A stretch of DNA of 49,843 nt from Leptolyngbyaceae cyanobacterium T60_A2020_046 (GTDB taxonomy: Bacteria > Cyanobacteriota > Cyanobacteriia > Phormidesmidales > Phormidesmidaceae). The notes below the pieces were generated by a model. It was given only the letters and a program-made list of their open reading frames with translations, did no database searches and had not been told where the DNA came from. The stretch covers positions 1 through 49,843 of the forward strand of contig JACYME010000145.1 in assembly GCA_015272155.1 (NCBI GenBank), given 5' to 3'. Position 1 is the stretch's first letter, and every line of letters begins with the position of its first letter. This document shows, piece after piece, positions 3,300 to 38,143 of this stretch. A program made the translations under genes and the position numbers.

Positions 3300-4007
3300 T
3301 CAGACTAGGATTTTTTCAAGGGCCGCTAGGTCAGGAATACACATGACATCGCGATCGCGCGAAATCAGCCCTTTCTTCTCCAGCTTATTCAATACCCGCG
3401 TCACCGTCTCGCGGGCCAAGCCACTGAGGCTACTGAGTTCTCGATGGGGCAAATTGGGAATTTCAATTTCCCCCGACGCACTTCGTGTACCCTGCCCATC
3501 CGCCAAAAAGAGAATGATATCCGTCACCCGAGAGGTGCTGTCCGACTCTCGCAGCCGCAACCGCCGATTTACCTGCCGCAGACGGCGCGCCATCAGTTGC
3601 GCCAGCCGAATGCCCGCCAATGGTTCCGAATGAATGAGATGGACGAAATCCTGGGCCGGAAGATTCCCAATCACCGTCGGCACCAGCGTGATCACATCCG
3701 TCGATCGCGGCACCTCGTCTAGGGGAGCCATTTCGCCAAAAAGCTCACCCTTGCCCAAAATGTTCAGCGTGACTTCCTTCCCGTCCAGATTATACGTCCG
3801 AATTTTGACCCAACCATCCAAAATAAAATAGACCGAACTGCCCCAGTCATTTTCGAGCAAAATCACCTGATTCGCGGGATGCCGACGGCTCACCACCTGA
3901 GCTGTTGCCTTTTGAACAACCGCCTCAGGCAGCCCAATGAAGAACGGCGTTTCCTGGATGGGAATACCGTCTGTAGCGGGATCACGAGAACCGTAGCGAC
4001 TATCCAT
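3300..4007 (-). CDS. Crp/Fnr-family transcription regulator, SyCRP1-like
   Basis: A 235-residue regulator with an N-terminal cyclic-nucleotide-binding domain (about 20-145) and a C-terminal winged helix (about 155-230). The phosphate-binding cassette reads GELFGEMAPLDEVPRSTDV, with the Glu and Arg-Ser expected for cAMP contact. The linker helix RLAQLMARRLRQVNRRLRLR and the recognition helix LSSLSGLARETVTRVLNKLE are typical of cyanobacterial CRP proteins. From memory it looks much closer to the cAMP receptor SyCRP1 than to NtcA, whose recognition helix differs. It heads a leftward operon with DUF2232 and UPF0284 genes. Good confidence in family, moderate in cAMP as ligand. Confidence 0.88.
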   Translation of the reverse strand: MDSRYGSRDPATDGIPIQETPFFIGLPEAVVQKATAQVVSRRHPANQVILLENDWGSSVYFILDGWVKIRTYNLDGKEVTLNILGKGELFGEMAPLDEVPRSTDVITLVPTVIGNLPAQDFVHLIHSEPLAGIRLAQLMARRLRQVNRRLRLRESDSTSRVTDIILFLADGQGTRSASGEIEIPNLPHRELSSLSGLARETVTRVLNKLEKKGLISRDRDVMCIPDLAALEKILV

Positions 4008-34861: not shown

Positions 34862-34964
34862 ATGCCGACCTGCCCTAAATGCCAAGCCACTCGTACCGTT
34901 AAAAGCGGCCACATCCATACGGGTAGGCAACGCTATCTCTGCCGTCAATGCGGTTACCAGTTCG
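34862..34964 (+). pseudogene. IS1-family insA, 5' half
   Basis: Starts ATG at 34862: MPTCPKCQATRTVKSGHIHT, then GRQRYLCRQCGYQF and the first base of the Val codon. This is the zinc-finger N-terminus (CPKC and CRQC) of an IS1-type InsA protein. Similarity stops exactly after G34964, where the integron-type cassette begins; the frame then runs by chance to 35035 into antisense methyltransferase sequence. The other half resumes at 36918. Confidence 0.88.
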
Positions 34965-34996
34965 TTAGACGGCAGTCCCCGCAACCCCACACTTCA

Positions 34997-36037
34997 TTAC
35001 GCTGGATAGCGCTTTGCTTTCTCGAAGAGACGTAATTGTTTTAAGTGATGGACTATTTCCTGAGACTCACCTGACATGATTTCTTCATATAAAAGCCTAA
35101 TGTCATTTTCATCTGCGTCTTCTTCCATAAAACGAAATGAAGATGCTGCAAGATATTGAAGTTCTCTCTCAAAAGCCAACCAATACCTATTTTCCTGTTC
35201 AGCCACAAAGCCAGTTGTGTTAGAGCCTGCAAAAATATCGACAACTAGATCTCCAGGCTCAGTCAGAAAACGAATAAAAAATTCTGGGAGCTTGCCAGGA
35301 AATCGTGCAGGATGAGCCTTTAAACCTAAAGTTTTACAACCTCTAAGGTATTGACCATTTGACTCAGAATTAGGAATTTGTAGAAGGTTAGAAGGAATTG
35401 CACCTCCATTGTCCTTTCCAAAGCCTTTACCAATATCATGTCCAGATGGGCGCTTCTTAGGATCGTAAAATTTCTCTGGATCTTCTAGGAGTTTTTTCAT
35501 CCTAGAACTATATTCTGTTAGAACTTTAGTTACATCAGATTTGGGAAACTCAGATTTACTGAACCACCAAACTGTGTTCACAGAATCCTTCGCTCTTATT
35601 TTTTTCTTGTTGACCCACTCGATAGGGCTAGGCAATTTTGAGGGATTAAACCAGTAGAAATCTTCTGCCAGGAAAAAACCAATTTCATCGCAAAAGTGAA
35701 TTGGGATCCTAAAGTTATATAAACTTCTGACAGGTTTTCCTTTTTCATAAGCACCGCCCAAATCCAGGACAAAACTGCCGTCATCTTTAAGCTTCTGATA
35801 AACAATCGCAGCAAAATTGGCAAGCCACTCAATATATTCAGATTGGTCTTTATTGCCATATTCTTTTTTCCTCTGAAGCGCAAATGGAGGACTAGTCAAG
35901 ACTAAATTAATACTGTTGTTTGGCAGCTTGCTGAGCAGTTCTAGGGAGTCACCACAAAAGGATGCACCCATATCAGTCGAATAGACTGGGGAATTCCCAA
36001 AAGGCTCAAGATCTATAGGAAATTTTACTTGCTGCAA
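34997..36037 (-). CDS. pvuIIM: Type II DNA methyltransferase, M.PvuII-like (N4-cytosine)
   Basis: A 346-residue beta-class methyltransferase. The catalytic motif TSPPF (residues 48-52, motif IV) precedes the AdoMet-binding motif I (LVVDIFAGSNTTGFVAEQEN, about 265-284), the order typical of the beta class; SPPF/Y is the form used by N4-cytosine enzymes. Size and order match M.PvuII, which methylates the inner cytosine of CAGCTG and protects DNA from the partner nuclease. It is transcribed away from the controller and endonuclease genes, with 61 bp between start codons, as in the classical PvuII system. Base composition is AT-rich compared with resident genes. Very confident in function; specificity inferred from the partner. 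Confidence 0.93.
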   Translation of the reverse strand: MQQVKFPIDLEPFGNSPVYSTDMGASFCGDSLELLSKLPNNSINLVLTSPPFALQRKKEYGNKDQSEYIEWLANFAAIVYQKLKDDGSFVLDLGGAYEKGKPVRSLYNFRIPIHFCDEIGFFLAEDFYWFNPSKLPSPIEWVNKKKIRAKDSVNTVWWFSKSEFPKSDVTKVLTEYSSRMKKLLEDPEKFYDPKKRPSGHDIGKGFGKDNGGAIPSNLLQIPNSESNGQYLRGCKTLGLKAHPARFPGKLPEFFIRFLTEPGDLVVDIFAGSNTTGFVAEQENRYWLAFERELQYLAASSFRFMEEDADENDIRLLYEEIMSGESQEIVHHLKQLRLFEKAKRYPA

Positions 36038-36056
36038 GATAACTCGACCTCAATCG

Positions 36057-36083
36057 CTACTTATAGTCTGTAGACCTATCGTC
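36057..36083. promoter_or_regulatory. C-box operator of the R-M system
   Basis: In the gap between the methyltransferase and controller genes: ACTTATAGTC (36059-36068), spacer TGTA, GACCTATCGTC (36073-36083). Two inverted half-site pairs of the ACT...AGT / GAC...GTC type around a TGTA spacer are the form bound by PvuII-class controller proteins, which activate their own and the endonuclease gene and limit expression. It ends 15 bp before the controller start at 36099. Confidence 0.8.
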
Positions 36084-36098
36084 ATCATTATCCCAATT

Positions 36099-36347
36099 AT
36101 GGAGATTATGTCAATCTCCAAGCCTGTGTCATCTAATGCTAGAAGACTTTTTGCAAAAAGGCTACGACAGATTCGTCAGGTAAAGGGTCTGTCGCAAGAG
36201 TCACTTGCTGACTTAGCAGGTCTGCATCGTACCTATGTAGGCTCTGTTGAACGGAGTGAGCGCAATGTATCGATTGATAACATGGAGCGTCTCGCTAAAG
36301 CCTTGGAGGTTGACATTGCTGAACTTCTAAGGGACGAATCAGAATGA
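36099..36347 (+). CDS. pvuIIC: R-M controller protein, C.PvuII-like (XRE family)
   Basis: An 82-residue helix-turn-helix protein with the XRE fold: [40 protein letters not shown], then a helix for dimerisation ([17 protein letters not shown]). Size and sequence match controller proteins of type II R-M systems. These delay endonuclease synthesis until DNA is methylated. Two starts are possible: ATG 36099 and ATG 36108; the first has no ribosome binding site, as in leaderless controller mRNAs, the second follows GGAG only 3 bases away. The stop overlaps the endonuclease start by 4 bp (ATGA), so the two are translationally coupled. Confidence 0.92.
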
Positions 36348-36832
36348 TGCCTCATCCAGATAAAGCGATTCTCGATGAGTTGTTCCCATATATCCAGAGT
36401 TATCAAGAGCTTGCGACCAAGCACGGTATCAACGATATTTTTCAGGATAATGGCGGCAAGATTCTTCAGGTTTTGCTGGTGACTGGATTAGTGATTTTGC
36501 CTGGTCGAGAAGGCAATGATGCTGTAGATGAATTTGGTAACGAGTATGAGCTAAAATCGGTAAATATAGCCTTAACTAAGAGTTTTTCAACGCATCACCA
36601 CATCAATCCCAGAATTATTGAAAAATACAGACAAGTAGATTGGATATTTGCTGTTTATAGAGGAATTAACCTCATTGCTATATACAAGCTAACTCCAACT
36701 GATCTTGAGTATTTTTACAGTCAGTGGGAAATAACATGGCATAGCAGAGGTGGAAGAGATATTAACAATCCTAAGATTCCGCTCAAGTATGTGATGGAGC
36801 ATGGAGTTCTTTTGTACTCAGCCGAAAGTTAA
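36344..36832 (+). CDS. pvuIIR: Type II restriction endonuclease, R.PvuII isoschizomer
   Basis: A 162-residue endonuclease nearly collinear with R.PvuII (157 residues), as I recall that sequence. Shared blocks include [26 protein letters not shown] (here [12 protein letters not shown]), EYELKS, STHHH and the C-terminal [14 protein letters not shown]. The catalytic triad of PvuII (Asp58, Glu68, Lys70) is present as Asp59, Glu69, Lys71; the metal-site residues Asp34 and Glu55 are Asp35 and Glu56, and the HHH used in base recognition is kept. So it should be active and cut CAGCTG bluntly. It overlaps the controller gene by 4 bp. No truncation or frameshift. Very high confidence in identity. Confidence 0.95.
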
Positions 36833-36835
36833 ACC

Positions 36836-36917
36836 GTCTAACAATTCAAATGCAGCGGACGGACGAAAGGCCACTGGTGCTGAGTTCAAGGTGATTTGCC
36901 GCCGCTGATTTGAGCCG
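36836..36917 (+). other. attC recombination site (59-base element)
   Basis: R'' box GTCTAAC (36836-36842), spacer AAT, TCAAAT (36846-36851), extrahelical G36852, CAGCGG (36853-36858), extra A36859, CGG (36860-36862); then a variable loop of 36 bases; then CCG (36899-36901), CCGCTG (36902-36907), ATTTGA (36908-36913), spacer GCC, G36917. The arms pair fully except for the 3-base central spacer and the two single extra bases, which are the features integron integrases use to recognise the folded bottom strand. The R' box GTTAGAC is completed by the cassette's left end. Confidence 0.9.
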
Positions 36918-37072
36918 TTGAGAATCCGACGGATAAACGCATTGATCAAGCTGCACGAGAACTGATTGACCGGCTGTTGTTAGAGCGCCTCTCGATGGCT
37001 GGTATCGCGCGAGCGGTGCAGGTTTCTGAGCAATGGCTGCAGGATTACGTCAATAGACTTTATTGGAAATAG
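36918..37072 (+). pseudogene. IS1-family insA, 3' half
   Basis: Continues the insA frame from TT at 36918: (V)ENPTDKRIDQAARELIDR, LLLERLSMAGIARAVQVSEQ, WLQDYVNRLYWK and stop at 37070-37072. This is the helix-turn-helix part of an IS1-type InsA. Fused to the 5' half it gives an uninterrupted protein of about 86 residues, close to InsA length (91 in IS1). No insB catalytic frame follows, so the IS copy was already incomplete or has since decayed. Confidence 0.88.
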
Positions 37073-37234: not shown

Positions 37235-38143
37235 TTAAGCAACCGGACTTGATATCAAACGGAAGTTGTGCAAGCCACAGGCCGTTTCCATCACATCATC
37301 GATGTAATGGCCAACCCAATGGCGAAACGGCTGAACCAAAATTTGACACCGCTTGATGCCCCCGATGGGATGTTCGATTTCCACACGAACGCTAGAAATG
37401 TTTTGGTTATGCATCTTCTCAATCGTGCTGAGCGAGCGCTTGCGGGGTTTCTTCTTGGGTTGCCGAATCGTCACTCCCACTGGGGCAAAGCCTTGAAACC
37501 CCGTATCCTGCCATAACGTACTGCCCGCCGGAAATCGTCAGTCCTCCTCGTCGGCAATCGCCTTGTCGTGCGTCTTGCCTTCATCGGTGTCACTCAGATA
37601 GCGCACCTTGCCCTAGCGGTCGTGAACCACCAGGTTCTTGACGGTATGAGTTTTGCGCTTACCGCTGTAGTACGTCTTGCGGTCGGCCTGATCCTTGGGA
37701 CGATTGATCCCACGTTCGGTGCCATCAATCATGAACTCTAAACTCGGACAGTCTTGGAGGATGCGCTCCAGATTCGTCGGTTCCCGCTCGGGCAGCTGCT
37801 GCTCGTAGCCGAGGGTCTGGTTCAACACCCCCGTAAGACGGTGAATCCATTGATTCGCTTGCGCCTGACTCATGCCAAAGAAAAAGCCTTGCACCTCCTG
37901 AGTCGGATAGAGGCGAAAGTACATCAGGATGAACAGCAATTTATCTTCCAGCAGCTTCAGATGTACTTTACGCCCCGCTCCTACCGCTCGTTTACGCCCT
38001 TCGTGCTCAAAGGTCTCTCGCACAAAGTCGTCCCAAGCATTGCCGAAGCTCGGTAACAATGCCTCGAACTCTGACACCCTCAGTCCCGTCAAACTGCAGA
38101 AGGTGCGAGGTTTGCTCTGCAACTCGGCATAGGTTACTTTCAT
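37235..38143 (-). pseudogene. IS5-like DDE transposase with two in-frame stops
   Basis: Leftward, 303 codons in a single frame. The N-terminal helix-turn-helix region (FCSLTGLRVSEFEALLPSFG, LYPTQEVQGFFFGMSQAQAN) and the DDE core can be followed throughout: Asp in MIDGTERGINRP, Asp in KTHDKAIADEED, Glu in RVEIEHPIGGIKR. Two stops interrupt it: TAG at 37613-37615 (after VVHDR) and TGA at 37538-37540 (after ADEED). No frameshift is needed, so decay is by point mutation and probably recent. It resembles the DDE_Tnp_4 group of IS5-type elements. I could not fix the ends of the element with confidence. Confidence 0.85.

Follow-up and report, generated by a model that had tools for sequence, protein, structure and literature searches.

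The PvuII restriction–modification (R–M) system has been described as mobile from other genetic contexts (Naderer 2002, to the extent that it is cited in PMC2997769). In the Proteus system, the controller protein C holds the endonuclease back for about ten minutes from the time of entry; expression of the methyltransferase is independent of C (PMC3695507). R–M systems on integrons have been reported (PMC3874152), R–M and defence genes have been found in the cassette arrays of Xanthomonas (PMC12444791), and toxin–antitoxin cassettes are known to carry their own promoters (PMC11023631). Cassettes can also insert at attG sites, according to what PMC12901181 and PMC12444791 cite from Loot 2024, and older work deals with integron insertion at secondary sites (PMC10127599). 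Integrons have been described in cyanobacteria (PMC2426708), and attC models have been made for the phylum (PMC8352920). Each ingredient of the locus presented here is already known: cyanobacterial integrons, cassettes with R–M or defence genes, cassettes with their own promoters, and attG insertion. In the literature searched, a library with few subscription journals, no paper was found that describes an R–M cassette of the PvuII type or under C control.

Here we analyse a 49,843-bp cyanobacterial stretch (the window), which is contig C215 of a 4.2-Mb draft genome. We are very confident that its positions 34965–36917 form a bona fide integron gene cassette that carries a complete C-controlled type IIP R–M system of the PvuII kind and was probably inserted by IntI at an attG-type site.

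Gene content and ends of the cassette

The cassette consists of the following features:

34965–36917, plus strand: whole integron cassette, 1953 bp; its ends are common to copies in two other genomes, L009 (94.7% identical) and L145 (88.8%), with flanks that show no homology
34965–34970, plus strand: TTAGAC, the 5' end of the cassette; in the circle, the closing G of the attC extends it to R' GTTAGAC, the complement of R''
34997–36037, minus strand: M, PvuII-type N4-cytosine methyltransferase, 346 aa, TTG start; PF01555 at 2.2e-41, M.PvuII (PDB 1boo) at 1.5e-154
36038–36098, no strand assigned: divergent intergenic region with C-boxes, 61 bp; core at 36056–36083, GCTACTTATAGTC TGTA GACCTATCGTC
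36099–36347, plus strand: C, controller protein, 82 aa; HTH_3 at 1e-14, PADLOC Control_protein at 1.1e-26
36344–36832, plus strand: R, PvuII-type endonuclease, 162 aa; PF09225 at 2.1e-65, R.PvuII crystal structures (1ni0 at 2.5e-76)
36836–36917, plus strand: attC, 82 bases; R'' GTCTAAC at 36836–36842, extrahelical G at 36852, ending at the G of G|TT

From its start at G|TTAGAC the cassette runs through M, on the minus strand, the C-box operator, C and R to the attC, which ends at G|TT. The left junction (34964/34965) reads ...CAGTTCG|TTAGACGG and the right junction (36917/36918) ...GAGCCG|TTGAGA, and GC content is 0.409 within the cassette versus 0.603 in the remaining window. A sequence-only reading of the window had proposed that 34965–36917 is one cassette, starting with TTAGAC after a G, ending with an attC and a G before TT, and holding only M, C, R and their operator. 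Its coordinates, ends and content were confirmed here, and the Pfam and PDB matches bear out the assignment to the PvuII type.

The frames of M, C and R are all open, and C overlaps R by ATGA. The system shows the hallmarks of PvuII-type R–M loci, namely homology of R and M with catalytic motifs, the overlap of C and R, C-boxes upstream of C and a divergent M. In alignment to R.PvuII, R keeps the D..ELK catalytic set and the HHH motif, as NDAVD...ELK and FSTHHH, motifs that in PvuII serve for catalysis and contact. The C-box core GCTACT(T/C)ATAGTCTGTAGA is nearly invariant in all 16 aligned relatives, Proteus pPvu1 among them.

The predicted target of the system is CAGCTG. This hexamer occurs 6 times in the available sequence of the host genome against 38.8 expected; CTGCAG (4 versus 44.2) and CCGCGG (4 versus 38.3) are equally rare. 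Since other palindromes are as scarce as CAGCTG, R–M activity is not readable from site counts, and we ruled out CAGCTG avoidance as proof of activity.

The attC site is a structured hairpin

Folding the attC as single-stranded DNA together with the GTTAGAC of the circle formed every one of the seven R''/R' pairs, along with another arm and a single extrahelical G, as expected from the earlier proposal that the closed circle recreates GTTAGAC as the partner of GTCTAAC. The fold had a z-score of -3.6, and 1 of 200 shuffled sequences folded as well. Among related attCs the pairs are kept by compensatory change, with 90.8% of cells paired and a covariation score of 0.399 versus 0.140 in shuffles. 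Fold, covariance model and pair counts together describe an imperfect hairpin with an extrahelical base, whose structure is conserved while its sequence varies.

A strict script search for attC sites returned many false hairpins in repeats, and a covariance model was therefore built instead. It was made in this analysis from 13 aligned cyanobacterial attCs, comprising the window site, the L009 array and three plasmids (similarity matches). When the whole genome was searched with this model, the window attC was found at 81.6 bits (E 9.2e-21); the sequence-only reading had named the absence of a covariance-model hit as a result that would refute it. The site belongs to the training set, so this score is partly circular and independent support weighs more; the attC fold, the empty insA site and the shared ends are free of this circularity.

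The cassette interrupts an insA gene

The cassette sits inside the insA gene of an IS1-family remnant, which it divides into two parts:

34862–34964, plus strand: 5' part of insA, IS1-family zinc-ribbon (PF03811 at 9.9e-7), interrupted here by the cassette
36918–37072, plus strand: 3' part of insA, whose fusion with the 5' part restores an open frame of 85 codons

The two halves rejoin without a missing base. Two insA paralogues of the same genome, L089 (CG|TC) and L090 (CG|TT), on contigs C231 and C238, are continuous at the insertion point and provide the empty site that had been suggested as a check. CG|TTGA, the target, is not an attI or an attC site. It has the G|WT core and the empty site of an attG-type target, the empty site being a paralogous one and not the same locus of a sister strain. 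Insertion at G|TT outside arrays fits attG-type recombination as well as the older secondary-site work. Beside the insA remnant lies a broken DDE_Tnp_4 transposase in two pieces (37235–38143, minus strand).

The same cassette occurs in other cyanobacteria

At least two other cyanobacteria hold this cassette at unrelated positions and with both ends unchanged, which indicates that this defence system really does travel as a cassette. In L009, from an uncultured Leptolyngbyaceae metagenome-assembled genome (MAG), the 94.7% DNA identity covers window positions 34962–36919, with no match beyond. This copy lies within a cassette array, with attCs on both sides: an upstream cassette has its attC at 1057–1143, and further attCs lie at 3341, 3650 and 5520. 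An array occurrence of this kind was what the sequence-only reading had proposed to look for. Because this independent copy has the same start and stop inside an array, chance is excluded as an explanation. A neighbouring cassette of the array (L009:3803–5448) encodes a small partner protein alongside an AAA ATPase that weakly matches AbiLi and HEC-01; the two are candidates for a defence pair.

The second copy, L145, lies on a 3571-bp contig of a genome from another family of the class (G073). It matches window positions 34963–36925 at 88.8%, is solitary and has an attC of 65.7 bits. The cassette appears to lie directly past the stop of an adenylate-cyclase-like gene, and its left flank has only CG|TT in common with that of the window. 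L152, on one contig of genome G069, is a relic that begins at the cassette start, carries an internal deletion and has lost its attC. A short palindrome fills this deletion (L152:1400–1530; arms of roughly 25–30 bases, TCTTCTGAGTTTATGGTGGGGGCGCG...). No homology to the flanks of the window was found in L009, L145 or L152. Instead of the differing gene boundaries in relatives that had been named beforehand as evidence against a cassette, we saw the same two ends between unrelated flanks.

More distant systems also carry an attC directly after R, in Microcoleus sp. FACHB-1515 (L011, 56.5 bits), Acaryochloris (L020, 40 bits) and Pseudanabaena (L012, 32 bits); in a Spirulinaceae MAG the site after R is decayed (20 bits). 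Given the sites in L011, L012 and L020, we dropped the idea that cassette packaging is restricted to the nearest copies. PvuII genes are patchy, being present in 10 of 194 related genomes, and relatives on viral contigs (60–66% identical) showed no good attC. In a tree of M and R, attC-bearing systems fall into three supported cyanobacterial groups, interspersed with systems that have no attC. It follows from this mixing that the cassette form is either old and often decaying or of more than one origin. Over the genes and as far as R'', L011 has about 80% identity to the window; beyond that point its attC is of a different type (CCCGTTGCACACCGACCG; L011:6494–6582), the one that also ends the cassette upstream of the PvuII copy in L009. 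The simplest reading is a possible replacement of the attC beside conserved genes.

Integron integrase and attC content of the host and the phylum

The host encodes an integron integrase as an open frame on another contig (C182:347–1327; 467 bits against a cut-off of 265). That contig ends 346 bp upstream of intI, and its end carries a G|TTAGACGG junction, which is consistent with an attI followed by a first cassette. End overlaps did not join C182 to other attC-bearing contigs of the genome. At the cassette locus itself there is no adjacent intI or attI of a complete integron, the only IntI of the genome being that on C182. The covariance-model search found no further attC within the window, and to this extent the earlier description of a solitary cassette outside an array holds; the genome as a whole is not integron-free. 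Other attC-like sites are scattered over it (C194:7141, C134:21493, C172:8898, C65:22470 and C14:6857), several of them decayed, which means that the R–M system is not exceptional in forming a solitary cassette. The C134 attC ends in G|AT instead of G|TT, and roughly 80 bp separate the C14 site from a fragment of this insA.

Across 117 cyanobacterial genomes, the window genome included, IntI matches (E ≤ 1e-60) were found in 53 and attC matches (E ≤ 1e-4) in 104. Among the matches listed, attC lay upstream of intI and on the opposite strand in 13 of 13 co-located cases, which we read as the canonical layout and as a control on the model. These genomes often hold dozens of attC-like sites each, many far from any intI. 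The Kovacikia minuta plasmid pA (34132–46211), an unannotated cyanobacterial megaplasmid, has eight model attC sites within 12 kb.

Discussion

The sequences show directly where the cassette ends, that it has an attC, that in other genomes it exists as an array member and as a solitary copy, and that it was inserted into insA. Taken at the window locus alone, the data would also be compatible with a 4-bp duplication made by another enzyme, that is, with an illegitimate or transposase-type insertion, the hairpin being a terminator or small repeat that is there by coincidence. R–M systems are known to insert with duplications, and CGTT is present at both junctions. The array copy already contradicts this explanation: L009 has the same start and stop flanked by other attCs, and L145 has them next to a left flank that shares only CG|TT with the window. 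The hairpin, moreover, combines R''/R' and an extrahelical base with covariation among cassettes that are unrelated. We regard such a duplication as extremely unlikely. Scattered and partly decayed attCs elsewhere in the genome might instead suggest that this cassette alone remains of a former array at this locus and did not insert directly at an attG site, but the insA halves join without a missing base, the window holds no second attC and the sister copies of insA are empty, and we consider this origin very improbable.

Direct insertion by an integrase is therefore the reading that we prefer. A real cassette could still be silent, its R–M system inactive in this host and carried as neutral cargo. 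No CAGCTG-specific avoidance was demonstrable, and the relic in another host (L152) has an internal deletion; against this stand three open frames, intact catalytic motifs and a conserved operator. We see a silent cassette as a real though minor possibility.

Under direct insertion, the circular cassette would be acted on by an integron integrase, with the IntI of the host as the probable enzyme, and the folded bottom strand of its attC would recombine with the non-attC, attG-type target CG|TTGA in insA, nothing being duplicated outside the shared core. The R–M genes would then run from their own promoters, with no need of an integron promoter. M would be made first; C would accumulate and activate the C–R operon via the conserved C-boxes, and the endonuclease would appear late, so that the cassette could insert at any G|TT. 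Conservation of the operator points to a C-dependent delay like that in Proteus, a property that would suit cargo landing at unpredictable sites. We infer restriction activity, mobility and addiction for this cassette: a functional system would restrict foreign DNA, and loss of the cassette would expose unmethylated sites to leftover endonuclease, favouring its retention. Post-segregational killing by R–M systems is established elsewhere (PMC3874152), and by analogy it would penalize excision without reinsertion and make the cassette self-maintaining. As a tentative generalization, possible though short of probable, C-controlled R–M cassettes in cyanobacteria may form a self-sufficient mobile class that leaves arrays, settles alone at G|TT in many hosts, exchanges attCs and persists without an integron promoter, since the C circuit would make entry safe and loss costly.

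The strength of the case is the completeness of the natural evidence, with an array copy, solitary copies, an empty site and a relic. It links a textbook restriction system to integron mobility, and it makes testable both the survival of a toxic, timed three-gene circuit as a moved cassette and addiction as a reason for solitary cassettes. It also points to a large, little-noticed content of attC and IntI in cyanobacteria.

Compared with known systems, the cassette shares with the PvuII system of Proteus pPvu1 the three genes, their divergent order, the overlap of C and R and a near-identical C-box operator, with 71% identity in R and 68% in M, whereas the Proteus system is a plasmid locus in which the covariance-model search found no attC. 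Antiphage cassettes of sedentary chromosomal integrons in Vibrio and Xanthomonas likewise hold defence genes as cassettes; unlike them, the window has a C-regulated three-gene cyanobacterial system that exists within an array and, in further hosts, as a solitary copy. Toxin–antitoxin cassettes are similar in being self-expressed and potentially addictive cargo, while the present cassette has a restriction enzyme and a methyltransferase in place of a toxin protein and its antitoxin, with an additional timing circuit. With attG insertions it shares a solitary cassette at G|TT outside any array. As far as Loot 2024 is represented in the papers that cite it, the window differs as a natural cyanobacterial case with empty paralogous sites, as read from the sequence.
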